Of a stretch of 62,808 nt of DNA, positions 27,451-40,588 are shown piece after piece. The DNA is from an uncultured Acidobacteriaceae bacterium (GTDB lineage Bacteria > Acidobacteriota > Terriglobia > Terriglobales > Acidobacteriaceae): positions 1 to 62,808 of the forward strand of contig CAIVDV010000032.1 of NCBI GenBank assembly GCA_903904755.1, read 5' to 3'. Positions within the stretch are counted from its first letter, which is position 1; each line of letters starts with the position of its first letter. Position numbers and translations under genes: made by a program. The notes under the pieces are model-generated. The model saw nothing but the letters and a program-made list of their open reading frames with translations. It ran no database searches and was not told the DNA's origin.

Positions 27451-29112
27451 ATGGCAAACTTCATTCCCGCTCGCCGCATCCTCACCCTCGCCGCCATGGC
27501 CCTCGCCGCCTCGGCTCCCTTCCTCTCCGCCCAGTCCCTCACCCGGGCTGATGCCGAAAAGGACCCCGTCCTCAAAGCCATGCTCACTGAGCTCGACCGC
27601 TCCCAGGCCCAGCTCAAGCTCAAGGACTTCGAAAAGCCCTACTTCATCGAGTACCGCATCGACGAAATCTCCGGCTTCGGCACACGCGCCGAGTACGGCG
27701 CACTCCAAAGCTCCGGCCAGTTCCACCGTCGCGGCGCACTCGTCAACGTCCGCATCGGCAGCTACAAAAGCGACAACAGCGGACGTGGAGACAGCGTCCC
27801 CACCCTCGAAGTCCTCGACAACGACCCCATCGCCCTCCGCACCGCCCTCTGGACCGCCACCGACCAGGCCTACAAGGCCGCCCTCGACGCCTACGCCCGC
27901 AAGCAGGCTGAGCTAAAGCAGGTCCAGACGCCCCCGCAGGCTGACGACTTCTCCCACGAAAAGCCCGTCATCCTCCTCCAGGACCCCAAGTCCTTCTCCA
28001 TCGACCAGCCCACCTGGGAGCGCGCCATCCAGGCCGCCAGCGGCCTCTTCCTCTCTGAACCCTCCCTCGCCGCCGCCCGGCCCGATGTCCAGTACGCCCG
28101 CGCCTACCTCGACGCCACCGCCGTCACCTCCTGGCTCGTCAACTCCGAGGGCACCATCACCCGCACCTCCGTCACCCACTACGACCTCGGCTTCTCCACC
28201 GGTGGCCAGGCCGCCGACGGCATGAAGCTCGACCGCAGCTACTACCTCGCCGGCAACTCCCCAGCCGACCTCGATACCCCCGAAAACCTCACCCAGCACG
28301 CCCTCGCATGCTTCAAGGGCCTCGAAGAACTCCGCCAGGCTCCCCTCGTCGATGAGGAATACCACGGGCCCGTCCTCCTCGCCGCCGATGCCGCCGCCGG
28401 TGCACTCAAGGGGCTCCTCGCCCGCGCGGTCACCGCCAGCCGTCCCCCACTCGGGACTGAGGCACGCACCACCGGCGCACTCGCCTCCAGCCTCCACGCC
28501 CGCGTCCTGCCAGACTTCATCGATGTCACCGACGACCCCTCACTCGCCACCTGGAACGGCAAAGGCAACGCCGGCACCTACTCCGTCGATTCCCAGGGCG
28601 TACCCGCGCAAACCGTCCCACTCGTCGTCTCCGGGAAGCTGGAAAACTACCTCCTCAGCCGCGAACCCATCCGCGACTTCCCCAACTCCAACGGACACGG
28701 TCGCGCCGCTCCCTTCGCCGCTGCACTGCCCTCCATCGGCGTACTCCGCATCTCCGCGCACGACGGCGAATCCCTCGACAGCCTCAACCAGAAACTCCTG
28801 GCCATGGCAAAGGATCGCGGCCTCAGCAACGTCTATTTTGTGGAATCCATCTCAGGCAGCGGACCCCGCCTGCTCTACAAGCTCGCGCCAGACGGCAAAC
28901 GCACACTCGTCCGCGGTGCCCGCCTCGAAGATCTCGACCTGCGCACACTGCGTTCCGGTATCGTCGCAGCAGGCAAGGACCTCTTCGCCAATAACCAGCT
29001 CGGCGGACAGCCAAATACCGTCCTCGCTCCCGCGCTCCTCTTCGACGACATCACCGTCAAGCGCGCCAATGAGAAGAACGACAAGCTGCCCTACTATCCT
29101 CCGCCATCGTAG
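27451..29112 (+). CDS. Exported TldE/PmbA-like partner without zinc motif
   Basis: 553 residues with a signal peptide (ARRILTLAAMALAASAPFLSAQ). It aligns in outline with the preceding gene: the FIEYRIDEISGFGTRAEYGAL N-terminal part, VLPDFIDVTDDPSL, SGKLENYLLSREPIRDFPNSNGHGR. At the place of HEXXXH it has LLAADAAAGALKGLL, and the C-terminal Cys is missing. This mirrors the active/inactive TldD/TldE heterodimer, so a paired exported peptidase is inferred. Only 2 bases separate the genes. Confidence 0.85.
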   Translation: MANFIPARRILTLAAMALAASAPFLSAQSLTRADAEKDPVLKAMLTELDRSQAQLKLKDFEKPYFIEYRIDEISGFGTRAEYGALQSSGQFHRRGALVNVRIGSYKSDNSGRGDSVPTLEVLDNDPIALRTALWTATDQAYKAALDAYARKQAELKQVQTPPQADDFSHEKPVILLQDPKSFSIDQPTWERAIQAASGLFLSEPSLAAARPDVQYARAYLDATAVTSWLVNSEGTITRTSVTHYDLGFSTGGQAADGMKLDRSYYLAGNSPADLDTPENLTQHALACFKGLEELRQAPLVDEEYHGPVLLAADAAAGALKGLLARAVTASRPPLGTEARTTGALASSLHARVLPDFIDVTDDPSLATWNGKGNAGTYSVDSQGVPAQTVPLVVSGKLENYLLSREPIRDFPNSNGHGRAAPFAAALPSIGVLRISAHDGESLDSLNQKLLAMAKDRGLSNVYFVESISGSGPRLLYKLAPDGKRTLVRGARLEDLDLRTLRSGIVAAGKDLFANNQLGGQPNTVLAPALLFDDITVKRANEKNDKLPYYPPPS

Positions 29113-29149
29113 CCTTCCGGCAGAGGATAGCAGGCAGCCTGGAACGGAT

Positions 29150-29572
29150 TTACTTCGTCTTGCGGTTCAGTGCGCCCACAATCGCGCCCGAAACCAGCAT
29201 CGTCAGCAACCACGAACCAACAATCGCCGCCCAAACGTTCAGCTGATGGTCGCCGTTGAAGAACTGCCCGGTCACAAGCAGAATCGTCAGCGCAGGGAAA
29301 ATCAGGCTCAGCCAAAGCAATGCCGCTACCCGCAAACCGCGTATCGGCGACAAAACCCCAGTCAGTTGCGTAATCCGCGAAATCGCCGCTGCTATCAGCG
29401 CAAATCCCACTATCAGAACCGCATACTGCACGTTCTGCTGTTGACTCGTGTTGGTGGCTAGCCACCCCTTCAACAGGTAGCTGTTCCATGCCGCCTGCAG
29501 AATCGAACTGACGACCGCCGCTACTACAATCGCCACGTAATTCTGTTTCACTCCACTTGTTTCGTTTGCCAT
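29150..29572 (-). CDS. DUF1761-like membrane protein
   Basis: 140 residues from ATG 29572; a GTG 6 bases upstream is possible. GGAGAAG precedes it. Four hydrophobic helices; NYVAIVVAAVVSSILQAAWNSYLLKGW resembles the DUF1761 start. No functional site known. Convergent with the TldE-like gene, 37 bases away. Confidence 0.75.
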   Translation of the reverse strand: MANETSGVKQNYVAIVVAAVVSSILQAAWNSYLLKGWLATNTSQQQNVQYAVLIVGFALIAAAISRITQLTGVLSPIRGLRVAALLWLSLIFPALTILLVTGQFFNGDHQLNVWAAIVGSWLLTMLVSGAIVGALNRKTK

Positions 29573-29836
29573 GTTCACTCTTCTCCGTTCATTTCTCGCA
29601 AAGTCGTATTACGGAACCAGGGGTCGGGTGCGGAGTCCGTGCCAAAAGTCTTCCAAAATCTACTGCGAGCACGTCCTGATCGCACACTGTAAGGTTGCAC
29701 GGATTGTATCGAGAAATCATTACGATAGATAGCTATTTGTCCCGATTTGGTAACCCCCGCCCAAATCCACGCACCCAAGTCAGCTCCATCGCGATACCCG
29801 GCACCTTCAACGTCACTGCGCCCACCTCCGCGCCCC

Positions 29837-30550
29837 TCAATCCAGCCGCGTCAAATACGCGTCCCCCTCCGCCGGCTTCAGGCTTCGCGCAATCTGCTGC
29901 GCCACCTCCCGGCTGTCCCCCGCAGGCCGTATCCGAACCCAGTACCCAGTGTCTCCCGCAAAATCAATCACCTGTGCATCCGGATACTTCCGCTCCAGTT
30001 GCCGCTCCAGCGAGCGCGCCTTCCCCTCATGCTCAAACGCGCCTATCTGCACACACCACCGCCCCCCAATACCCATCGGCTTCGGCGTCTTGTACACATC
30101 AATCCGCACTGTCGCCAGCCCCATCCGGTACACACCCGTCGCCTTCGCTGACGCTATCGACAAATCAATCGACCGCCCCTTCACAAACGGCCCCCGATCC
30201 GTCACCCGCAATATCGCCGATTGCCCCGTCTTCTCGTTCGTCACCTTCAGCAGCGATCCCATCGGCAACGTCCGGTGCGCAGCAGTCATCGCGCTCCGGT
30301 CAAACGCCTGCCCATTCGCCGCCTTCTTGCTCGCCGGCGCGTCATACCACGTCGCCTGCCCCTCCTCGCTGAACAGGGGCCGGTGCGTCGCCACAAACTC
30401 CGCGTCTTCCTTATCCACTCCACCCGGCGGCACCGGCGTCGGCGCAATCCGCGGCGGCGCAGGCCTGCGCGTCACCACCACCTCATGATGACTGCACCCC
30501 GCCAGCAGCAGCGACATCCCTGCCACCACCACAGCGCACGCCCGCACCAT
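29837..30550 (-). CDS. rlpA: RlpA-like septal ring lytic transglycosylase lipoprotein
   Basis: 237 residues from ATG 30550 (a GTG at 30565 overlaps the upstream stop). Lipoprotein signal ending in LLLAGCS. The double-psi beta-barrel domain runs from EEGQATWYD through FDRSAMTAAHRTLPMGSLLKVTN to ILRVTDRGPF and RSIDLSIASAKATG, with the catalytic-type Asp/His pattern. A C-terminal SPOR domain (WCVQIGAFEHEGKARSLERQL...YWVRIRP) should bind denuded septal peptidoglycan. Second gene after a small coiled protein on the same strand. Confidence 0.92.
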   Translation of the reverse strand: MVRACAVVVAGMSLLLAGCSHHEVVVTRRPAPPRIAPTPVPPGGVDKEDAEFVATHRPLFSEEGQATWYDAPASKKAANGQAFDRSAMTAAHRTLPMGSLLKVTNEKTGQSAILRVTDRGPFVKGRSIDLSIASAKATGVYRMGLATVRIDVYKTPKPMGIGGRWCVQIGAFEHEGKARSLERQLERKYPDAQVIDFAGDTGYWVRIRPAGDSREVAQQIARSLKPAEGDAYLTRLD

Positions 30551-30561
30551 GTGCTTCGCCC

Positions 30562-30780
30562 TCACCTCGGTGGCGTCCCCTCTCCATCCAGCTTGCGACC
30601 CAGCTTCTCCAGTTGGCTCGCCAGCTCCCGCAGCGCTGCAGCGCTCTCCCGCCGCACCTGCGGAACCACCTCAGCATCCACCCGCGCCACCGCATGGCGC
30701 ACCTCGGCCTCTGCCACGGCAAACAGGTGCTTCATCGTTGCCGCTATCGGATGCTCATACCCCGGCTCATTCCCTGCCAT
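30562..30780 (-). CDS. Small helical protein upstream of rlpA, function unknown
   Basis: 72 residues with GGTGGAG just before the ATG. Mostly amphipathic helix (EAEVRHAVARVDAEVVPQVRRESAAALRELASQLEKLGRKLDG), probably a coiled coil. It precedes rlpA by 11 bases (or overlaps its alternative GTG by 4), so they should be co-expressed. No family recognised. Confidence 0.65.
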   Translation of the reverse strand: MAGNEPGYEHPIAATMKHLFAVAEAEVRHAVARVDAEVVPQVRRESAAALRELASQLEKLGRKLDGEGTPPR

Positions 30781-31038
30781 ACTCCACCCCCCGCTTCCAG
30801 TCTCCGAACCCTCAAGCCCACCGTCAATCCCCCTCGCAACCTTTCTCCCCTTTAGGGTTCCCCCGGCGATAACTTCCCGTTCCTATTCACCCCACGCAAC
30901 TTTCTCCATCTCGAACATTTGTAACGTCGTAAATTTCAGATTTTCCGCTTAGAATTGTCCGTGCGCTCTTCTTCGCCCCCGGTGGATTTGTTGCACCCAT
31001 ACATTGAACCTGCGATACATTGCTGAACGGGGTGCTCG

Positions 31039-33114
31039 TTGCATCTGCAAACCTTAAAGTTCGCGGCTATCCAAAAGGCGGAACGGACTGATTCCGCGCT
31101 CCACCTCCTGGCCTGCCGCAACCTTTTGCGCCCCGCCGCCTCTCTCGCTCTGCTCCTCTTCGCCTCCCTCGCCCTCAGCGCCCAGCCCGCCTCGCCGCAC
31201 CTCGCCGCCGCACCGCTCACCACCACCCACGCTGTCCATTCCCTCACCCCCGAGCAGTCCGCCACCGGCATCCCCATCCACCTCACCGCCGTTGCTACCT
31301 ACTTCGACCCATACATCGACGTTCGACATGCCGCGCTCTTTGTCCACGACTCTACAGGCTCACTCTTCGTCAGGGTCCCTCTTCAGAACTACCCCCCCAT
31401 CCACACCGGGGACCTCCTCCAAATCGATGGCATCTCTGGCCACGGCGACTACGCACCAATCATTCAGAATCCCCGCATACGCATCCTCGGCCCCGCCTCC
31501 ATGCCTTCCTCCGCCCCCAGAGTCACCGTTCCTGAAACCAGAGAACCCCTCTGGGACGGACAGTGGGTCGAGCTCGAAGGGCTCATCCAGGGATTCCTCA
31601 TCACCGGAAAAGACGTTACCTTCGATCTCTCCACAAACGGAGGCCCCCTCCGTTGCATCGCCGTTGTCGAGCCAGGCACTCGATACCAGGACCTCGTTGA
31701 TTCCCTCGTCCGAATCCGCGGAAACATCGCACCCGTCTTCAACCGCAATCGACAGCTCGTCGGCTCCCGACTCCTCTTCGCCGGCGTCACCCAGATTGCC
31801 GTTCTGAGCCCCGGTGAACCAAACCCTTTTGACGCTCAAGTCGTTCCCATCTCCAAAATCCTCCAGTACGTCCCCGGCCAAACCCTCCAGCGTCGTGTCC
31901 ATATCCGCGGACGCGTCACCCTCCAGTGGCCCGGCCGCGTCCTTTGCATTCAGGACCGCAGTGAAGGCATCTGCGTCGATACCACTGAAACCACTCCCCT
32001 CCCTCTCGGCACCCTCGTCGATGTCCTCGGCTTCCCCGCCACTCAGGACTTCCACCCCACACTCGACAACGCCATCACCCGCTCCGCCCCTGACCCGCCC
32101 CAGCCCGTTGCCCCGGTTGCCCTTCAAATATCCGATATCGCTGGAGCAGCCCACGACAATCAGATCGTCACCGTTACCGGCGAGATCGTCGGCGTCGACC
32201 GCTCCACTGGTGACCTCAACCTCGCCGTCAGCACCGGCAACATGGTCCTCACCGGAATCCTCCCCATCGAGGCCGCCTCAAAGCAAAAAACCGCCTGGCA
32301 AATCGGCGACACCGTACGCCTCACCGGCGTCTGCAACCTCCTCGTCGACGGCGACCTCACCAACATCGCTGAAGGCGGCATTCGCGCCTCCAACGTCCAC
32401 ATCCTCCTCCGCTCTCCCGACGATGTCGCCATCCTCGCAACCCAGGGCTGGTGGACTCCCGGCCACCTCGCCGCCATTCTCGGCATCCTCCTCCTCACGG
32501 CCGTCGCTGCCATCGCATGGGTCGTCGTCCTCCGCCGCCAGGTCGCCAAGCAAACCCTCGAGCTCCGCCGCAACGAAGACCGCCTCCGCCACCTCTCCCA
32601 GCACGACGTCCTCACCGGCCTCCCCAACCGCCTCCTCCTCGACGACCGCATGACCATGGCACTCGCCCAGGCCGCTCGCTCTCAATCCGTCCTCGGCCTC
32701 CTCATGCTCGACCTCGACGGCTTCAAAAACATCAACGACGACCTCGGACACCTCGCCGGAGACCTCGTCCTCAAGCAGGTCGCCGAACGCCTCAGAAACT
32801 CCGTCCGCACCAGCGACACAGTCGCCCGCGTCGGCGGCGACGAGTTCATCGTTCTCCTCCCCAACCTTCACTCCGCTGAAGACGCCGAAGTCATCGCCGG
32901 AAACATCGCCGCCGCCATCAGCGTCCCCATGGAACTCTCCGGGAAGGAAGTCCGCGTCGCCGCCAGCGTCGGCGTCACCACCTACCCCATTGCCGGACGC
33001 ACCGCCGGCACCCTCATGCACCATGTCGATTTGGCCATGTACCAGGCAAAATCCCGCGGCCAGGGCTCCTACGCCGTCTACTCCCCAAACCCCTCCGAAT
33101 CCCCCCTCGCTTAG
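31039..33114 (+). CDS. Diguanylate cyclase with periplasmic OB-like repeats
   Basis: 691 residues if the TTG at 31039 is used; the start is uncertain because no ATG precedes the signal-like helix (RPAASLALLLFASLALSAQ). Residues about 70-465 hold four related beta-rich blocks (GRVTLQWPGRVLCIQDRSEGICV, ITVTGEIVG-type strands) that look OB-fold-like. One membrane helix lies at 476-499, a short coiled linker follows, then the GGDEF domain: DVLTGLPNR, LDLDGFKNIND, GGDEF at 599-603 and an inhibitory RxxD at 590-593. Makes cyclic di-GMP, probably responding to an envelope signal. Confidence 0.88.
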   Translation: MHLQTLKFAAIQKAERTDSALHLLACRNLLRPAASLALLLFASLALSAQPASPHLAAAPLTTTHAVHSLTPEQSATGIPIHLTAVATYFDPYIDVRHAALFVHDSTGSLFVRVPLQNYPPIHTGDLLQIDGISGHGDYAPIIQNPRIRILGPASMPSSAPRVTVPETREPLWDGQWVELEGLIQGFLITGKDVTFDLSTNGGPLRCIAVVEPGTRYQDLVDSLVRIRGNIAPVFNRNRQLVGSRLLFAGVTQIAVLSPGEPNPFDAQVVPISKILQYVPGQTLQRRVHIRGRVTLQWPGRVLCIQDRSEGICVDTTETTPLPLGTLVDVLGFPATQDFHPTLDNAITRSAPDPPQPVAPVALQISDIAGAAHDNQIVTVTGEIVGVDRSTGDLNLAVSTGNMVLTGILPIEAASKQKTAWQIGDTVRLTGVCNLLVDGDLTNIAEGGIRASNVHILLRSPDDVAILATQGWWTPGHLAAILGILLLTAVAAIAWVVVLRRQVAKQTLELRRNEDRLRHLSQHDVLTGLPNRLLLDDRMTMALAQAARSQSVLGLLMLDLDGFKNINDDLGHLAGDLVLKQVAERLRNSVRTSDTVARVGGDEFIVLLPNLHSAEDAEVIAGNIAAAISVPMELSGKEVRVAASVGVTTYPIAGRTAGTLMHHVDLAMYQAKSRGQGSYAVYSPNPSESPLA

Positions 33115-33201
33115 CCTTTCCCCGCCCCGCCCCTCCGCACTTCCCCGCCTCGCTTCCCCCGTTCAGCCCCCAGATTCCCCATTCGCTGGTTCGCCTTTGA
33201 T

Positions 33202-33231
33202 TTGACCCAGCCTTCCGGTTACCCTTGCAAT
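33202..33231 (+). promoter_or_regulatory. Possible promoter for the Tes-like gene
   Basis: TTGACC (33202-33207), 18-base spacer, TGCAAT (33226-33231; 4/6 to consensus). About 120 bases before the ATG at 33354. Position fits but the -10 box is weak. Confidence 0.35.
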
Positions 33232-33353
33232 GAAATATTCTCCCCATTTTCCACGCTGCGGAAAATAGGGCTCGGGTAGACGCTACGTTCTCTGCCCCCC
33301 AAACGCAACCACCTCAAGCCATCAAACTAGACCCCAAGGAGATTGGAGCCCCA

Positions 33354-35447
33354 ATGCCAAAAGCTATCAAATACGTTGAGAAGGCCCTCGTGTACGGTGC
33401 CCAGGGCGCATGGGCGGTTTTTGAACGCCTCAATCGCATCAGCCCAAACCCGTCCATCACTCCCAAGTGGAGCGACAAGCCCCTCCTCAAGAGCTGGCAG
33501 AAGGAAAAGCCCCCACTCGGCTGGCCCCGCTACACTGACTCCCTCTGTCCCAAGTGCGTCCCTGAGATCCGCAAGCAGATCCTCGACGGCAAGCTCCCCC
33601 ATGAAGTCCTGCTCAACGAAAAGGTCGGCGAAATCAAAGCCCAGATCATCGAGCGCGACGGCAAAATCCTCATGGTCAAGGACTGCCCCAAGCACGGCCA
33701 CTTTGAAGACGTCATGTCCATCGACGCCGAGTTCTTCAAGCACCTCGAAGAGAGCTTCCCCGGCCGCGACATCCGCGCCCACAACGACGAGAAGCTCCAC
33801 AACCACGGCACCTCCACCGTCACCCATGGCCGCGGCTCCGTCCTCACCATCGACCTCACCAACCGCTGCAACATGATGTGCGACCCCTGCTTCATGGACG
33901 CAAACCAGGTCGGCTTCGTCCACGAACTCACCTGGGCCGAAATCAAAACCATGCTCGACAACGCCATCACCATCAAGCCGCGTCGTCAAATGAGCGTCCA
34001 GTTCTCCGGTGGCGAGCCCACCCTCTCCCCTTACTTCCTTGACGCCGTTGCCTACGCCCGCAAGGTCGGCTACAACTCCGTCCAGGCCGCCTCCAACGGC
34101 ATCGAGTTCGCCAAGTCCAAGGAACTCTGCCGCGCCGCCGCTGAAGCTGGCCTCCGCTACGTCTACCTCCAGTTCGACGGCATCGGCAACGCCGCAAACT
34201 CCCACCGCAAGGTCGGCAACCTCTTCGACGTCAAGCTCCAGGCCATCCACAATCTCCACGAGGCCGGCGTCGATATCGTCCCCGTCACCACCATCATCAA
34301 CGGCATCAACAACGAGCAGGTCGGCCGTATCATCGAGTTCGCGCTCGACAACCCGCGCACCATCAGCTTCCTCTCCTTCCAGCCCGTCAGCTTCACCGGC
34401 CGCGACGAGGACATCTCCGATGAGCGCCGCGCCGCACAGCGCTACACCCTCTCTCACATGGCCCACGACGTCAAGGCCCAGACCGGCCTTGGCGAACCCT
34501 CCCGCGACTGGTTCCCCATCTCCTTCATGAGCACCTTCTCTGACTGGGCTGACCATATGAAGGGCGCAAACCAGGACTGGGGCAACCTCTCCTGCGGCTG
34601 CCACCCCAACTGCGGCATCGGTATGGCCCTCATGGTCGACAAGGAAACCAAGGAAGCTGTCCCCGTTTCCAAGTTCTTCAACGCCATGCAGGTCGCCAAG
34701 GATGTCGCCAAGGTCAACGACGCCGCCCGCGGCAAGTTCCTCTCCATCCTCGGCGTAGCCCTCGCCTTCATGCGCAACTACGACCCCTTCCAGGCTCCCA
34801 CCCACTTCAAAATCACTGACATGTTCCAGAAGCTCGACAAAACCTTCGGCGCAACCGGCAAGGACTACGGTTCCATCTCTGCCGACCGCACCGCTGCCGA
34901 CATCGAGCGCCGCCGCAAAGACCGCTGGAACTTCCTCTTCATCGCCGGCATGTGGTTCCAGGATCTCTTCAACTACGACTTCCGCCGCACCGAGCAGTGC
35001 ATCATCCCCTACGCCACCCAGGAAGGCGAAATCAGCTTCTGCGCCTACAACACAGGCATCGGATGGCGCAACATCATCGAGAAGATGCACATGACCGCCA
35101 CCCTCACCAAGTGGTACGAAGAGCACGGCCGTCACGAAATCTTCGCCGGCGGAAAGCAGGTCGGCATGGCCCACGTCGGGCACAAGCTCGAACTCAACAT
35201 GGACCACGTCAACGCCGAAGCCAACCACACCCTCGACCAGCTCGGCATCGCCAAGAACGCCCGCGAGGAAAAACTCCGCGCCCGCGACGAAAAAATCAAG
35301 TCCGATGCCGAAAACGCACGCATGGCCAAGCTCTACCGCGAACACGTCCTCGGCGAAAAGCCCGTCGAAGGCCTCGTTTCCCTCAACTCCATCGCCCCAG
35401 CCAAACCCACCACAACCCGCACCGAAGAACCCGTCGCCGGCGACTAA
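33354..35447 (+). CDS. Tes-like radical SAM enzyme, candidate membrane-spanning lipid synthase
   Basis: 697 residues; AAGGAG and GGAG precede the ATG. Radical SAM cluster Cys172, Cys176, Cys179 (RCNMMCDPC) and the SAM-binding GGEP at 219-222. It also has the extra Cys pattern of tetraether synthase: SLCPKC (65, 68), DCPKHGHFEDV (111), SCGCHPNC (414, 416, 420), and MWFQDLFNYDFRRTEQC...ISFCAYN (549, 563), suggesting auxiliary Fe-S clusters. Archaeal Tes couples lipid tails by C-C bonds; homologues are proposed to make iso-diabolic acid in acidobacteria. The assignment is by motif memory, not search. Monocistronic, ended by a strong terminator. Confidence 0.85.
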   Translation: MPKAIKYVEKALVYGAQGAWAVFERLNRISPNPSITPKWSDKPLLKSWQKEKPPLGWPRYTDSLCPKCVPEIRKQILDGKLPHEVLLNEKVGEIKAQIIERDGKILMVKDCPKHGHFEDVMSIDAEFFKHLEESFPGRDIRAHNDEKLHNHGTSTVTHGRGSVLTIDLTNRCNMMCDPCFMDANQVGFVHELTWAEIKTMLDNAITIKPRRQMSVQFSGGEPTLSPYFLDAVAYARKVGYNSVQAASNGIEFAKSKELCRAAAEAGLRYVYLQFDGIGNAANSHRKVGNLFDVKLQAIHNLHEAGVDIVPVTTIINGINNEQVGRIIEFALDNPRTISFLSFQPVSFTGRDEDISDERRAAQRYTLSHMAHDVKAQTGLGEPSRDWFPISFMSTFSDWADHMKGANQDWGNLSCGCHPNCGIGMALMVDKETKEAVPVSKFFNAMQVAKDVAKVNDAARGKFLSILGVALAFMRNYDPFQAPTHFKITDMFQKLDKTFGATGKDYGSISADRTAADIERRRKDRWNFLFIAGMWFQDLFNYDFRRTEQCIIPYATQEGEISFCAYNTGIGWRNIIEKMHMTATLTKWYEEHGRHEIFAGGKQVGMAHVGHKLELNMDHVNAEANHTLDQLGIAKNAREEKLRARDEKIKSDAENARMAKLYREHVLGEKPVEGLVSLNSIAPAKPTTTRTEEPVAGD

Positions 35448-35470
35448 CCCGCATCCCTCCCCCAAACGGT

Positions 35471-35499
35471 AAAGGCCGCTCCCACCCGGAGCGGCCTTT
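35471..35499 (+). terminator. Terminator after the Tes-like gene
   Basis: Perfect 12-bp stem AAAGGCCGCTCC / GGAGCGGCCTTT with loop CACCC, 24 bases after the stop, followed by CCTTTT. Confidence 0.92.
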
Positions 35500-35935
35500 C
35501 CTTTTGCTCTTGCTTTTGCTTTTGCTTTTGCTCTTGCTTTTGCTCTTGCTTTTGCTTTTGCCTTTGCCCTTGCCCTTGCTTTTGCCTTTGCCTTTGCCTT
35601 TTTGTCTGTCATTCCCGAAGGGAATCTGCTTTTGCTTTTGCCTTTGCTGTTACCTTTGCTTTTGCCTTTGCCTTTGCCTTTGCCTTTTTGTCTGTCATTC
35701 CCGAAGGGAATCTGCTGTTGCCTTTGCTTTTGCTGTTGCCTTTGCTTTTGCTGTTGCCTTTGCTTTTGCTGTTGCCTTTGCCTTTGCCTTTTTGTTTGTC
35801 ATTCCCGAAGGGAATCTGCTGTTGCCTTTGCCTTTGCTTTTGCTGTTGCCTTTGCTTTTGCTGTTGCCTTTGCCTTTGCCTTTGCCTTTTTGTCTGTCAT
35901 TCCCGAAGGGAATCTGCTTTTGTCTTTCCTCCCGT
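35500..35935. repeat. Hexamer and hairpin repeat array
   Basis: About 435 bases of CTTTTG, CCTTTG and CTGTTG hexamers interrupted four times by the same 23-base unit with an ATTCCC-GAA-GGGAAT hairpin (35608-35630, 35694-35716, 35798-35820, 35896-35918), spaced 86-104 bases. Translated in any long frame it gives only Lys-Ala or Leu-Pro repeats. Not a CRISPR array: the intervals are themselves repetitive. Confidence 0.92.
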
Positions 35936-35948
35936 CCCGTACACCCTC

Positions 35949-36037
35949 CGGGTTCCTCATCCATTCAGCGTCCTTTTGCCGAATGGGTGGGACTAACCAC
36001 TCCCGCGCTAGCACACCACAATCGAGCGCAGCTCGAT
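35949..36037. repeat. Composite repeat, copy 3
   Basis: GGGTTCCTCATCC...GGGTGGGAC hairpin (35949-35993, inner stem ATTC-GCG/GCC-GAAT with mismatches) followed by ATCGAGC-GCA-GCTCGAT (36021-36037). Lies directly after the hexamer array, giving the same module order as copies at 97-303 and 58576-58691. Confidence 0.8.
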
Positions 36038-36047
36038 CCCCCACCCC

Positions 36048-36302
36048 TCAAGCCGCAAAAATCGCTTCCCGGCTCTGGTCTCCCAAACCGGCCAGCAACC
36101 CACCGACGGAAATATCTTCATTCAGCGCTTCCCAGTGCAGGCCCCGCCGAGTCACCCGCACCTGCGCCAATTCCTCGGGAGTCGCATGCATCAGCCCCGG
36201 AAACCACGCCAGCGGCACTCCAATCGTCCGCCCGTCGCTCAACTCCACCCACATCGAGTCCGCATCGAATCGCACCGTCACCGCGCTAACCGAAGTACTC
36301 AT
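36048..36302 (-). CDS. DUF2442 protein
   Basis: 84 residues from ATG 36302 (MSTSVSAVTVRFDADSMWVELSDGRTIGVPLAWFPGL). This is the standard DUF2442 pattern: an N-terminal beta part with SDGRTI.VPL.WFP, then WEALNEDISVGGLL. Its start lies inside the end of the DUF4160 gene (17-base overlap), so the two are coupled. The pair occurs widely; a toxin-antitoxin-like role has been suggested for such pairs but is not settled. Confidence 0.88.
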   Translation of the reverse strand: MSTSVSAVTVRFDADSMWVELSDGRTIGVPLAWFPGLMHATPEELAQVRVTRRGLHWEALNEDISVGGLLAGLGDQSREAIFAA

Positions 36303-36528
36303 TCCATGCCCTCTCTCTCCGAGCCCGATTTCTCTCAACCAGTCCCATCAGCTTGCGCAGCGTTCGCGCATCGTAGCCGTCATTGAATGCCACCTTTACT
36401 TCCGGCCTAAGCCAGAAATTCGCCTCCGCCTCGCCCTTCTCCACGTGGATATGGACTGGCTCCCGAGGCGAACCCTCATTGGAATAAAAGAAGAACCGGA
36501 ATCCATCCTCAAACCATACCGTTGGCAT
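36286..36528 (-). CDS. DUF4160 protein
   Basis: 80 residues: MPTVWFEDGFRFFFYSNEGSPREPVHIHVEKGEAEANFWLRP, the conserved DUF4160 block with REPVHIHV. C-terminal helix rich in Arg (VERNRARRERAWNEYF). First gene of the pair with DUF2442. Codon use is less skewed than neighbours, compatible with acquisition by transfer. Confidence 0.9.
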   Translation of the reverse strand: MPTVWFEDGFRFFFYSNEGSPREPVHIHVEKGEAEANFWLRPEVKVAFNDGYDARTLRKLMGLVERNRARRERAWNEYFG

Positions 36529-36609
36529 CCACGCATTCTAGCCGGAAACCACAACGAGAGCCACCTCACCCCGTTGCCCCCCAACCCCATCCCGCGCTAC
36601 CATCCCCCC

Positions 36610-37038
36610 ATGCTCATCCGCCCCAAAAACCATTGGCTCCAGCTCTTCATGGCAGTGCTGTACCTCTACATGGGCATCCACTCCTTCTTCTTCAAACCTT
36701 TGCACTCCTTCGAACCCTTCTACTTCGGCTCATCCGTCGTCTTCGTCTTTCTCTGGTTGGGCACCTTCACCACTCTCGAAAACGGCCACCTCTGCAAGCA
36801 AGTCTTCTTTATCCCCATCGCCAACATCCCCGTCTCCGAATTCACCCGCGTCGAGCCTCACAAAAAGAACGGCAAGCTCGGCTATGGAACCTGTTTCATC
36901 GTATACAGCGCACTCGCCGAAACGCTCAGCCTCTTGCCCCGCAAAACCGACTCTTACGTGACCCTCCAACCCAACAGACCCGCCCCCTTCCTCACCCTCC
37001 TCCGCGAACAAGCCCCCCAGGCCGAGTTCCTACTCTAG
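36610..37038 (+). CDS. Membrane protein with PH-like C-terminal part, unknown
   Basis: 142 residues from ATG 36610. Two helices (LQLFMAVLYLYMGIHSFFF and FYFGSSVVFVFLWLGTFTTL) are followed by a beta-rich segment (QVFFIPIANIPVSEFTRVEPHKKNGKLGYGTCFIVYS...DSYVTLQPNRPAPFLTLLREQ) resembling bacterial PH-like domains. Ribosome site weak. It lies 23 bases before the DinB gene on the same strand. Function unknown. Confidence 0.7.
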   Translation: MLIRPKNHWLQLFMAVLYLYMGIHSFFFKPLHSFEPFYFGSSVVFVFLWLGTFTTLENGHLCKQVFFIPIANIPVSEFTRVEPHKKNGKLGYGTCFIVYSALAETLSLLPRKTDSYVTLQPNRPAPFLTLLREQAPQAEFLL

Positions 37039-37061
37039 CCCAGCACTTCCCCAGAGGCCCC

Positions 37062-37595
37062 ATGCCCTTCTCCCTCCCCTACACCCTCGCCCTCCTCGCC
37101 CGCACCCCAGCCTCCCTCAACACCCTCCTCCGCGACCTGCCGCAATCCTGGACCCACGCCAACGAAGGCCCCGACACCTGGTCCCCCTTCGAAGTCATCG
37201 GCCACCTCCTCCACTGCGAGCAAACTGACTGGCTCCCCCGCCTCCGCTCCATCCTCGCATCAACCGCCCCCCGCCCCCTCCCGCCCTTCGACCGCTTCGG
37301 CCACATCCCCCTCTGCCAGGCCAACTCCCTCCCCGACCTCCTCGACGCCTTCGCCGCCTCCCGCGCCGACGGCCTCCACGAACTGGCCTCCCTCAACCTC
37401 ACCCCCGCTCAGCTCAAGCTCCAGGGCATCCACCCCATCTTCGGCACCGTCTCCGCCGCCAATCTCCTCGCCACCTGGGCCGTCCACGACCTCACCCACA
37501 TCCACCAGATCTCCCGCGTCCTCGCCTTCCAGTACCGCCACGCCGTCGGCCCATGGGAGCAGTACCTCTCAGTCCTCCACACCCGAACAAGCTGA
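37062..37595 (+). CDS. DinB-like superfamily protein
   Basis: 177 residues from ATG 37062, with AGAGG upstream. Four-helix-bundle DinB/YfiT pattern: SWTHANEGPDTWSPFEVIGHLLHCEQTDWLPRL (first metal-ligand His in GHLLH), and WAVHDLTHIHQISRVLAFQYRHAVGPW (second His pair HDLTHIHQ). Members are metal-dependent hydrolases or thiol transferases; substrate unknown. Confidence 0.9.
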   Translation: MPFSLPYTLALLARTPASLNTLLRDLPQSWTHANEGPDTWSPFEVIGHLLHCEQTDWLPRLRSILASTAPRPLPPFDRFGHIPLCQANSLPDLLDAFAASRADGLHELASLNLTPAQLKLQGIHPIFGTVSAANLLATWAVHDLTHIHQISRVLAFQYRHAVGPWEQYLSVLHTRTS

Positions 37596-37601
37596 CACCC
37601 C

Positions 37602-38060
37602 TCACTCCTCCCCCACCTCCGCCCGAATCCGCATCCGCATCGCATCCAGCTCGCCCGGCCCGCCAGCCAGCGCCACCGCACCTGTCGGCATCAGCACCCT
37701 CCCCCGCGCCGCTGCATAGCGCCGCACCAGCCACCACACCAGCCCGCTCGCCAGCACCACCACCAGCGCCGGTATCCCTATCAAAATCCTCCCCGACCAC
37801 CCATCTGGCTCCGCCAATATCGTCTCCCCATACTTCTTCCGGTAGTACGTCAATATCTCCGTCTCGTCCTTGCCCTCCACCACAAACTCCGTCACCTCAT
37901 CCCGCATCTCCGCAGCCACATCGCTCATATGGTCCTTTATCGTCTGCGAGTAGCAGCACGGCGCCATCAGCTTCTTCTCCAGCCGGTCCACCTTCGCCTC
38001 CTGAACCGGCGTCAACGGCAGCGCACTCAGCACCACCAGCAGCGTCACAGCAATATGCAT
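37602..38060 (-). CDS. CcmH/NrfF-like cytochrome c maturation protein, variant motif
   Basis: 152 residues from ATG 38060. Signal helix (MHIAVTLLVVLSALPLTPVQ), a helical domain, then a membrane helix (ILIGIPALVVVLASGLVWWLV) near the C-terminus. CcmH usually carries LRCxxCQ; here the site reads LMAPCCYSQTIKDH with adjacent Cys35-Cys36. The following YGETILAEPDGWSG segment matches CcmH (YG..IL..P). It probably reduces apocytochrome or holds it for haem attachment. A cytochrome c gene lies 0.4 kb upstream on the same strand. Confidence 0.85.
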   Translation of the reverse strand: MHIAVTLLVVLSALPLTPVQEAKVDRLEKKLMAPCCYSQTIKDHMSDVAAEMRDEVTEFVVEGKDETEILTYYRKKYGETILAEPDGWSGRILIGIPALVVVLASGLVWWLVRRYAAARGRVLMPTGAVALAGGPGELDAMRMRIRAEVGEE

Positions 38061-38157
38061 CGCTCTTCCTTTCCCCTCTTCGGGCCGGGGATGCCCCATC
38101 CATCCGCTATCCATGGGGACCCAAGCCTGCGGCCCCCGCAACCCGGCAAGTCAGCCC

Positions 38158-38460
38158 TCACTTCCCCCCATGCGCATACCGCACCTCATGCGCTGTCTCC
38201 TTGCCGCCCATCTTCATCGCGTGGATCACCACCCGGTCTCCCACCTTCAGCTCGCTCTGCTTTCCCGGCTTTCCACCCGTCTCCCAGCTCGTCGTCGCCG
38301 TCAGCACCACCTCGGTCTGCACACCGTCCTTCTCCACCGTCACCACGTTGCCGGCAATCTTGCTCACCGTACCCAGTACATGGTCCATATTCCCGTGCGC
38401 CATTGCCGGTATCGCCATCACCGTCAGCGCCATCAACACCACCATCAATATCCGCTTCAT
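38158..38460 (-). CDS. Small exported DUF5666-like beta protein
   Basis: 100 residues with a signal peptide (MKRILMVVLMALTVMAIPAMAHG). The mature part reads VLGTVSKIAGNVVTVEKDGVQTEVVLTATTSWETGGKPGKQSELKVGDRVVIHAMKMGGK, an OB-like strand pattern as in DUF5666. His/Met-rich ends (AHGNMDH, MKMGGKETAH) hint at metal binding. Its ATG overlaps the cytochrome c stop (ATGA), so it is coupled. Confidence 0.8.
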   Translation of the reverse strand: MKRILMVVLMALTVMAIPAMAHGNMDHVLGTVSKIAGNVVTVEKDGVQTEVVLTATTSWETGGKPGKQSELKVGDRVVIHAMKMGGKETAHEVRYAHGGK

Positions 38461-39080
38461 CGCTCTTTTCCTTTCGCTTTCGCAGGTTGGTCGGCCTCGC
38501 CATTCAGGAACGCATCTTCCGCCTGCTCTTCCTTCAGCTCCGCCGGGGTTATCGGATTTGCCTTCTCCATCTCCACTTCTTCCTCCGCTGTCAGCGCAGG
38601 CAGATGGCGCAGAAAAAACACCAGATTCCAGGTCTCCACATCCCCGTTTCCGGGATTGCCAAACGCCGGCATTCCGCTCATTCGCACTCCGTTCTGGATA
38701 ATCCCGTACAACTCGCCATCCGTCTTCCGCTGTGTCGCATCCAGCCGCAAATCCGGCGGCGCAGGATTCAGCCCGCGGCCCAGCATCGTCTCGCCGCTCC
38801 CGTTGTTCCCGTGGCAACTCGCGCAGTGGTCGGCATAGTGCTCCCGTGCCGCTTTAAGGCCCTCCGGCGTCGGCGCAATCGGTGCCGGCATCTCCCGCAG
38901 CGACCGCGGCACGCTCCCCCGCAACGCCAGCCTCGCCAGCCCCGCCTCCATCCTTCCCGGCCGGTTCCGTGCCGCAAATCCACCCGCCACAACCCACGCC
39001 GCAACCGCGGCGGCACACACGCCCGCCGCCGCCACTCCCAACGCAAAGCTCAAAAACGAAAAACCTCGCTGCTTCGTCAT
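38457..39080 (-). CDS. Membrane-anchored cytochrome c
   Basis: 207 residues from ATG 39080, with GGAGAGG upstream. N-terminal anchor helix (FLSFALGVAAAGVCAAAVAAWVV), then a class I cytochrome c domain: CASCH (in HYADHCASCHGNNGSG), LNPAPPDL, and a distal Met in NGVRMSGMPAFG. C-terminal tail is acidic. It probably carries electrons at the outer face of the inner membrane. Overlaps the DUF5666-like gene by 4 bases. Confidence 0.9.
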   Translation of the reverse strand: MTKQRGFSFLSFALGVAAAGVCAAAVAAWVVAGGFAARNRPGRMEAGLARLALRGSVPRSLREMPAPIAPTPEGLKAAREHYADHCASCHGNNGSGETMLGRGLNPAPPDLRLDATQRKTDGELYGIIQNGVRMSGMPAFGNPGNGDVETWNLVFFLRHLPALTAEEEVEMEKANPITPAELKEEQAEDAFLNGEADQPAKAKGKER

Positions 39081-39217
39081 ACGCCCTCTCCAGGCACCCG
39101 TCGCCTCTCCCGCCGCCCGCACCGGCACAGCATCGCAAGACAACTCAGCGCCTCAGGCTCCGGCAAACACACTCCGGCCCTGGCTTGCGAATCCAATTTT
39201 TTCGTTTGTGCGTGTCC

Positions 39218-39607
39218 TTAGCCGTTCACGCTCGGCGGCCCGCGCTTCTGCCGCGACCTGTCCAGCGCCAGCCGGTATTTGGCCGCTCCCTGCGCCTGCA
39301 CCGCCGGATGGCTCACCACCTCGGCATACACCGCAGCCGAAACCCCCGGCGCACCATACACCGTCGTCCCCACCGCAGCCGTCCCCCGCGGATACATCCC
39401 GCACCGCTCCGGCGTCGCTCCCACCTGCGCCCGGCCCGAGGAACTCGCTTCCATCAGGCTCGCCATCATCGCGCAGTGGTGCTTCCCATGCTTCCGGCAG
39501 CACGACGGCAAATTCGCTTCCGGGTCATTCGTCGCGGCAGCCACCAGCGGCTCAGCGTAGAAACCGCCAAGCACCACCAGCATCAAAACCGCAATCCATC
39601 GCCGCAT
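39218..39607 (-). CDS. Exported Cys/His-motif protein, unknown
   Basis: 129 residues, signal peptide (RRWIAVLMLVVLGGFYAEPLVAAA), CGGAGA before the ATG. The mature N-terminus has a compact NLPSCCRKHGKHHCAMM motif, likely metal-binding, and a further Cys in PERCGMYPRG. The C-terminal half has helical AVYAEVVSHPAVQAQ. It is 137 bases upstream of the cytochrome c gene, same strand; a link to metal delivery is an inference. Confidence 0.75.
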   Translation of the reverse strand: MRRWIAVLMLVVLGGFYAEPLVAAATNDPEANLPSCCRKHGKHHCAMMASLMEASSSGRAQVGATPERCGMYPRGTAAVGTTVYGAPGVSAAVYAEVVSHPAVQAQGAAKYRLALDRSRQKRGPPSVNG

Positions 39608-39673
39608 CGTGTCTCCGAGTATAACCCTGCCGCGCGGCCAACTTACACCCCAATCACGGCGGGCGGCCCGGCT

Positions 39674-40588
39674 CTACCGGTACACCATCACTTCCCGCGG
39701 AGCATCCACGCTCGCCCCCGGCGCCTGCAGCTTCAGCCGTATCGATACCACCTCCGGCTTCCCCTTCAGCGGCGCCGTAAATCCCAGCTCATACTGGTTC
39801 TTCAGCCGCAGCAGCAGCTCATCCAGGTACGGCTCAAAAGACACCGGATTCCCCTGCCCATGCCAGAAGTTCTTTCCCCCCGTCGCCTCCGTCAGCACCT
39901 GCAGCAAACTCTGCCCGTCATTCGCCGCCTGGCTCCCGTCATCCCCGCCCCCCCGGCTCTTCCAGTACAGCCCATACACCTGCAACCCCACCCGCACACT
40001 CTCCCGTATTGCCGTCTGCAGATACTGGTCATCCGGGTCAAAATGCTCCTGGTACGGGTCTATCCCGTCCGTAATCATCACCACCACGTGCCGCGCTCCC
40101 ACCACCCCGCCCGGCCACTTCTGCGCCAGATCCGCCAGGCAAAAATACGGGCTCGCGCTCGTTCCCCCCAGCGGCGTGTGAAGATGCTTCTTCACCTCCG
40201 ACCGGTCATCCGTCAACGGGCCCGCCAGCCGCGCCGTCCCGTTCTGCATATACGCCACCGTCGCCCGCACATTCGGCGGCAGCCGGTCGACAAACTTTCC
40301 AATTCCATCCAGTTGGCTACCCAGGCTGTCCCGCGACCCCGTATCAAACAGCAGCACCATCTCCACACCGTCGCCCGGCTCAGTCAGCGCCCGCCAGCTC
40401 TTCACCTCAGCCTTCTTGCCACCCACCGTCACCATCGCGGCCTTCCCATCCACCGTCACTGCCTGCGCATCCGTCTTCGGCAGCACCGTCACCACCACCC
40501 GACCCTCCCCGCGTACCTCATCCTGCGCCCAACTTCGGGTAACCAGCAGCGCCAGCACCACCATCACCAAACCCACATTTCGCGTCAT
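39674..40588 (-). CDS. VWFA-related acidobacterial protein
   Basis: 304 residues with a signal peptide (GLVMVVLALLVTRSWAQ). VWA core: VEMVLLFDTGSRDSLGSQLDGIGKFVDRLP (MIDAS variant DTGSR instead of DxSxS), ARHVVVMITDGIDPYQEH (second Asp), and a final NQYELGFTAPLKGKPEVVSIRLKL segment. This layout matches the VWFA-related family found mainly in Acidobacteriota (TIGR03436-type). Probably an exported protein-binding or assembly protein. GAGG precedes the ATG. Confidence 0.88.
   Translation of the reverse strand: MTRNVGLVMVVLALLVTRSWAQDEVRGEGRVVVTVLPKTDAQAVTVDGKAAMVTVGGKKAEVKSWRALTEPGDGVEMVLLFDTGSRDSLGSQLDGIGKFVDRLPPNVRATVAYMQNGTARLAGPLTDDRSEVKKHLHTPLGGTSASPYFCLADLAQKWPGGVVGARHVVVMITDGIDPYQEHFDPDDQYLQTAIRESVRVGLQVYGLYWKSRGGGDDGSQAANDGQSLLQVLTEATGGKNFWHGQGNPVSFEPYLDELLLRLKNQYELGFTAPLKGKPEVVSIRLKLQAPGASVDAPREVMVYR

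Follow-up and report, generated by a model that had tools for sequence, protein, structure and literature searches.

A gene of the Tes family

The window analysed here, a stretch of 62,808 nucleotides from an uncultured Acidobacteriaceae bacterium, carries at 33354–35447 on the forward strand an open reading frame (ORF) of 697 residues, as an earlier note on the sequence had described. That note took the product for a Tes-like radical S-adenosylmethionine (SAM) enzyme and a candidate for the synthesis of iso-diabolic acid, a membrane-spanning lipid component. Gene tallies below come from genomes drawn as samples of the phylum; since the gene is present at E = 0 in all 44 sampled genomes of the window's family, a chance ORF is excluded. 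The features of the locus are as follows, where canonical Tes means proteins above the curated Tes cut-off and MJ denotes numbering in the Methanocaldococcus jannaschii enzyme.

33336..33342, + strand: ribosome-binding-site-like AAGGAGA, 11 nt 5′ of the ATG (read from the sequence)
33354..35447, + strand: Tes-family radical SAM gene, 697 aa (ORF list; profile, PDB-sequence and fold matches)
33360..33437, + strand: N-terminal helix, residues 3–28, no equivalent in the canonical Tes rows (model, alignment)
33525..33719, + strand: rubredoxin-like domain (Pfam Zn_ribbon_HMPTM, residues 58–122), ligands C65, C68, C111 and H114 (Pfam, alignment, conservation; MJ ligands from the available text of PMC9433317)
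33783..33833, + strand: stretch aligning with the Tes N-terminal [4Fe-4S] loop CPxxCGxCxxH, free of Cys (alignment, model)
33867..33890, + strand: radical SAM motif C172-X3-C176-X2-C179 (Pfam, conservation)
34593..34613, + strand: CGCHPNC, that is C414, C416 and C420, with C420 aligned to MJ C338 (alignment)
34950..35051, + strand: C-terminal auxiliary cluster block, residues 533–566, with M533 (MJ M439), C549 (MJ C455), Y553 (MJ Y459) and C563 (MJ C470) (alignment, conservation; roles of M439 and Y459 from the available text of PMC9433317)
35151..35444, + strand: C-terminal extension, residues 600–697, of low conservation and without equivalent in the canonical Tes rows; a helix is predicted at 636–664 (conservation, alignment, model)
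35471..35499, + strand: intrinsic terminator, 12 pairs (terminator scan, folding)

The best NCBIfam model is Tes NF045702 (5.3e-96, 322.1 bits) and the second is TrsS NF045646 (1.1e-61, 208.8 bits); neither score reaches the curated cut-off, 450 and 490, respectively. The NirJ and MoaA models match more weakly, and the Pfam domains are Radical_SAM and Zn_ribbon_HMPTM. The top PDB sequence is 7TOL, the Tes of M. jannaschii (6e-62). An AlphaFold2 model built from 40 sequences (pLDDT 85.2, pTM 0.86) gives 7TOM as the best Foldseek match (E 1e-34) and 7TOL as the next (5e-33), with a TM score of 0.84 over the target and 27% identity, and the first non-Tes protein in that search is MoaA (3e-8). Both the Tes model and the fold match reach through the C-terminal domain. 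The best profile, PDB-sequence and fold matches are all Tes, in keeping with the expectation of the earlier note, and the protein belongs to the Tes family, yet is a non-standard Tes. The note's wider term, a Tes/MSS clade, is not precise enough: in Thermotoga maritima, from which Mss comes, the Tes model finds nothing at 1e-40, and the match there lies between 1e-40 and 1e-3, the latter a threshold at which all 14 controls match.

Metal sites and the N-terminal cluster

In archaeal Tes, the reported sites are a rubredoxin site (C9, C12, C33 and H36), an N-terminal cluster (C73, C77, C80 and one His), the cluster of the radical SAM site, and a C-terminal cluster whose Met439 is labile and which holds the first substrate radical as a C–S adduct (PMC9433317, available text). 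By our alignment, MJ C338, C455 and C470 would be the Cys ligands of this last cluster. We compared these positions across 116 distinct closer sequences (>700 bits, query included). The radical SAM triad C172/C176/C179 (CX3CX2C) is invariant in 116/116, and so are C65, C68, C111 and H114, a C-X2-C ... C-X2-H arrangement of the rubredoxin type in which a metal site is predicted. The same holds for C414, C416, C420, C549 and C563. The triad and the extra Cys residues are thus present exactly where the earlier note had listed them, and the GMWFQDLFNYDFRRTEQC...FCAYN block, linked there to archaeal Tes, does align with the archaeal block. C420, C549 and C563, together with M533, are the predicted ligands of a C-terminal auxiliary [4Fe-4S] cluster. 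M533 and Y553, the counterparts of Met439 and Tyr459, are likewise invariant (116/116); since the M439A and Y459F/L variants of Tes are reported to have remained active (PMC9433317, available text), these two residues are marks of the family and no proof of activity.

One difference lies at the N-terminal cluster. The motif CPxxCGxCxxH occurs in none of 120 ORFs of the window type, and it is found in all 31 canonical Tes ORFs (repeats included; 29 distinct genes). A more distant set gives the same picture, with the motif in 0 of 14 window-type ORFs (13 genomes; 13 of the ORFs cover the region) and in all nine canonical ORFs, of which eight are repeats; the full-length window-type matches of this set are 49–58% identical. 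Within the Cys-free region, all 116 closer sequences keep H149 and H151. Of the 13 distant ORFs spanning the region, 7 lack the pattern H-[HKN]-H-G-[TS]-S, and the confidence of the model is low there (block means 56 and 54). The earlier note had named missing auxiliary Fe–S ligands as evidence against its proposal, and half of this was found: the N-terminal [4Fe-4S] site has no Cys, and the residues of the C-terminal site are kept. Such a natural loss of one auxiliary cluster offers a way to probe the part this cluster plays in Tes.

Distribution, lipid producers and gene neighbourhood

In a 39-row tree, the 26 window-type rows are set apart from all others by one branch with support 100/100 and a long stem (3 changes per column). 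The canonical Tes rows split in two groups and not one clade (2 changes), and long branches meet there, so that a nesting of the window-type clade inside bacterial Tes is unsure. At 1e-3 the phylum sample gives matches in 344 of 396 genomes, many of these weak, and in the window's class the gene is present in 47/47 sampled genomes at 8.5e-301 or better. Among the listed loci (80 named loci kept, of 591 relatives), 78 have acidobacterial names and two are labelled Rhodanobacteraceae. Both of the latter (L053, L062) are metagenome-assembled genomes (MAGs), and L053 groups with Granulicella in the tree; either transfer or mis-binning may account for them. One genome (G141, f22) has two window-type paralogues, L150 and L151, with 63 and 51% identity to the window protein, and 11 of 16 f22 genomes have two Tes-model matches at 1e-40. 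In seven further genomes (G024, G050, G104, G164, G298, G156 and G245) the window-type match contains one in-frame TGA or TAG; the open frames are 671–806 aa, and the stop may lie at the variable C-terminal end.

We compared this distribution with reported lipids. The available text of PMC11354219 gives iso-diabolic acid as 12–30% of the fatty acids of six Edaphobacter strains, with 30.4% in E. modestus DSM 18101 and 26.4% in E. aggregans DSM 19364, where no ether forms were found. The gene is present in both of these strains, the two for which genome and lipid data are at hand; the other four strains measured in that paper lie outside the genome sample. Two other strains, of E. lichenicola, also carry it. 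At 1e-40 E. modestus has no Tes-family match besides the window-type gene, and its genome has no TrsS-like gene at high similarity and no DUF2229 protein. E. aggregans has a DUF2229 protein, and a second, partial window-type copy (L197, G400:C83) with 389 aa open, a stop within a longer match and no N motif. Three of eight genomes tested have an FMO protein; we take these three to be Chloracidobacterium, and all of them carry the window-type gene. The named carriers presumably belong to subdivisions 1 and 3, and Chloracidobacterium to subdivision 4. Iso-diabolic acid is reported from Chloracidobacterium (PMC12816986, available text), and a survey cited in the available text of PMC13274423 found it in subdivisions 1, 3, 4 and 6.

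The window genome has a second Tes-family gene (L002, G000:C9:226148-227569), which is TrsS-like and encodes 474 aa; the N-cluster motif is present in it, and FDTFN replaces FCxYN. At high similarity it occurs in 2 of 17 genomes (1 of the 16 others). This paralogue was rejected as the iso-diabolic acid synthase, being absent at high similarity from 15/17 genomes, E. modestus included.

Iso-diabolic acid might also be made by an Mss-type enzyme, with the window protein performing another lipid C–C or C–H step, for example a Gms-like cross-link. Mss of T. maritima is reported to yield membrane-spanning lipids in E. coli (PMC11604127, available text), and homologues of Mss are reported in 11 of 97 acidobacterial MAGs from the Black Sea; however, Tes homologues are reported in 17 of the same 97 (PMC11868695, available text), and the gene and the lipid agree in both strains with both data. 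We regard this route as unlikely. The five further NF045702 matches of the window genome at 1e-3, a list that reaches as far as the model does among radical SAM proteins, are two pieces of the TrsS-like gene, MoaA, a TIGR04053 protein and a 349-aa protein. The last of these (L115:1018-2064, G000:C9), a radical SAM protein, stays below every curated NCBIfam cut-off, and its best model is PqqE (4e-19).

To describe the link with ether lipids, we counted window-type carriers from a list assembled by hand (117 of 247 genomes, E 1.4e-196 or better); the canonical-Tes and DUF2229 tallies are taken as covering the same 247 genomes, and the Fisher tests ignore relatedness. DUF2229, which we take to be the mark of PlsA/Ger (plasmalogen/ether-synthase-like), was counted at 1e-30, where the controls T. 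maritima and Lactococcus lactis match; at 1e-3 Thermus and Deinobacterium match as well. Canonical Tes above the NF045702 cut-off occurs in 28 of the 247 genomes, and DUF2229 is found in 19/28 genomes with it versus 42/219 without it (p 3e-7). For the window type the numbers are 24/117 with and 37/130 without (p 0.18). Neither canonical Tes nor DUF2229 was found in 92 of the 117 window-type carriers, and 93/117 have no DUF2229 at 1e-30; most carriers are thus without this known way from ester to ether (the search did not extend to ElbD and Agps). We infer that the window branch acts on ester lipids and that the canonical branch is tied to ether lipids.

These counts bear on the possibility that the gene couples ether-linked tails and so makes branched glycerol dialkyl glycerol tetraethers (brGDGTs) proper, as is thought for canonical Tes, with iso-diabolic acid coming from elsewhere. 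Archaeal Tes works on ether lipids (PMC9433317, available text), and E. aggregans, a reported brGDGT maker (PMC8941075, available text), has both the gene and a DUF2229 protein. However, the window genome itself has no DUF2229 match, in common with most carriers, and E. modestus contains iso-diabolic acid without any ether form being found in the available text of PMC11354219. On balance we think ether-linked tails an improbable substrate.

In three genomes with DUF2229 proteins the two Tes types lie close together. In G265 canonical Tes comes directly after the window-type gene and runs in the same direction; the two genes are within 6 kb of each other in G121 and G073, where one conserved opposite-strand ORF separates them. 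This comparison covered ORFs conserved among the three loci. At three loci of same-family genomes (L148, L149 and L155), a window-type gene stands near canonical Tes and a DUF4440/SnoaL-like gene (Pfam on the L155 copy only), and such loci form a natural pair for comparing both Tes types.

The tandem of G265 also argues against a radical SAM enzyme that merely shares the Tes scaffold and acts on a non-lipid substrate. The absence of one auxiliary cluster, the long stem branch and the weaker TrsS, NirJ and MoaA matches could be read in that way; the C-terminal cluster residues, with the counterparts of Met439 and Tyr459, are nevertheless invariant, and the matches to the Tes model and fold extend over the C-terminal domain. 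We hold such a substrate to be very improbable.

Regarding the flanks of the gene, both the good ribosome site and the strong terminator of its own that the earlier note had read are borne out: AAGGAGA is spaced as listed above, and folding of 35465–35510 around the 12-pair stem gives −26.2 kcal/mol (z −4.9), a value equalled by 0 of 200 shuffles. Directly after the terminator, at 35494–35927, lies a tandem array of about 430 bp of TTTGCT-like hexamers with four copies of the palindrome-bearing GTCATTCCCGAAGGGAATCTGC. The nearest called gene upstream encodes a GGDEF protein (31126–33114). An Rfam scan of 29000–40000 gave no match, and the single match of a promoter scan is located within the Tes-family gene. 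An amphipathic N-terminal membrane helix was considered and rejected, since its hydrophobic moment was matched or exceeded in 709 of 2000 shuffles.

No lipid gene was recognised beside the gene in the window. The window has an extreme strand asymmetry (C 26474 vs G 13247): the GC skew stays between −0.27 and −0.38 throughout the ten 6-kb blocks of 1–60000, and is −0.009 over 17 kb of a different contig (L154) from this genome. Owing to this base skew the gene caller gave no minus-strand genes, and the neighbourhoods were compared from plain ORF lists. With ORFs overlapping the gene left aside, the commonest neighbour cluster is found at no more than 28 of 81 loci; for one cluster of 33 loci, an example overlaps the end of the gene on the opposite strand.

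Proposed function and known systems

This gene is genuine and conserved, a variant within the Tes family, and the analysis yielded no better candidate for the acidobacterial iso-diabolic acid synthase. It probably encodes a Tes-family radical SAM enzyme that couples two iso-C15 acyl tails of bacterial phospholipids end to end into iso-diabolic acid. The candidate put forward in the earlier note therefore stands: Tes gives the best matches, and the host group and the two strains with lipid data fit. The substrate and its ester linkage are proposed, and so is the chemistry, for which archaeal Tes serves as the analogy. First, SAM at the C172/C176/C179 cluster would yield a 5′-deoxyadenosyl radical, which would take an H atom from one tail. 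This tail would be parked as a carbon–sulfur adduct on the C-terminal [4Fe-4S] cluster (held, by alignment, by C420, C549, C563 and a labile M533). A second SAM would then activate the other tail, which would attack the parked one. The product would be iso-diabolic acid, a membrane-spanning C28 chain with two methyl branches, and the window-type enzyme would dispense with the N-terminal auxiliary cluster.

Several observations weigh against this assignment. The protein lies under the curated Tes cut-off, and with the N-cluster ligands absent Tes activity cannot be assumed. No conserved lipid-gene neighbours were seen across the loci compared. The agreement of gene and lipid comes from two strains, and because the gene follows the phylogeny of the class, co-occurrence amounts to few independent events. 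An Mss may be present in these genomes, and among the radical SAM proteins of the window genome the one of 349 aa could be anything. Finally, Solibacter usitatus is reported to have two Tes homologues and to make brGDGTs, which contain the same bond, with no detectable iso-diabolic acid (PMC10087280, available text); its homologues may be of this type or canonical.

A wider proposal, held with slightly less than even confidence, is that Acidobacteriota have two working Tes branches: a canonical one tied to ester-to-ether reductases, and an N-cluster-free one that couples the tails of ester phospholipids without an ether enzyme and is the long-sought iso-diabolic acid synthase of the phylum. 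The 9 of 28 canonical-Tes genomes without a DUF2229 match at 1e-30 speak against a clean split. If the proposal is true, the N-terminal cluster of Tes is unnecessary for C–C coupling. The brGDGTs serve to reconstruct past soil temperature and pH, and iso-diabolic acid is probably the unit from which they are built; its coupling enzyme in Acidobacteriota is so far unproven.

In outline the proposal is known. As candidates for making membrane-spanning lipids in bacteria, Zeng et al. (2022) put forward a Tes homologue from E. aggregans and, with better scores, homologues from Koribacter and Solibacter (PMC8941075, available text); their 32%-identity E. aggregans match is probably this gene and not the partial second copy. 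A 2025 paper calls the activity of bacterial Tes unconfirmed (PMC11868695, available text). Our literature search, subscription papers and preprints aside, found in the available texts no test of bacterial Tes activity, and neither the lost N cluster nor the DUF2229 pairing pattern, which are weak negatives. What the present analysis adds is the absence of the cluster, the clade and the pairing pattern.

Among known systems, Mss of T. maritima is similar in its proposed tail-to-tail coupling of fatty acids, and Mss models are reported to share the Tes architecture (2026 paper; PMC13274423, available text); it differs in that its source lacks an NF045702 match at 1e-40, a comparison made with the source and not with Mss itself. 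The TrsS radical SAM (seleno)protein shares the radical SAM core and gives the second-best NCBIfam model, but the window protein scores far below its cut-off (208.8 of 490 bits). Canonical acidobacterial Tes is of the same family, stands in tandem with the window type in G265 and near it in G121 and G073, and is 33–37% identical to the window protein (8 aligned rows); however, it has CPxxCGxCxxH, is mostly about 530–560 aa long and tracks DUF2229. Along its length, the gene of E. aggregans DSM 19364 shares 83% identity with the window protein. Lastly, archaeal Tes (GDGT-MAS; MJ0619, 7TOL/7TOM, NF045702) shares the predicted fold, the rubredoxin and radical SAM sites, the C-terminal cluster residues and the counterparts of Met439 and Tyr459, whereas the window protein is without the N-terminal [4Fe-4S] ligands and has an N-terminal helix and a C-terminal extension of about 100 residues.
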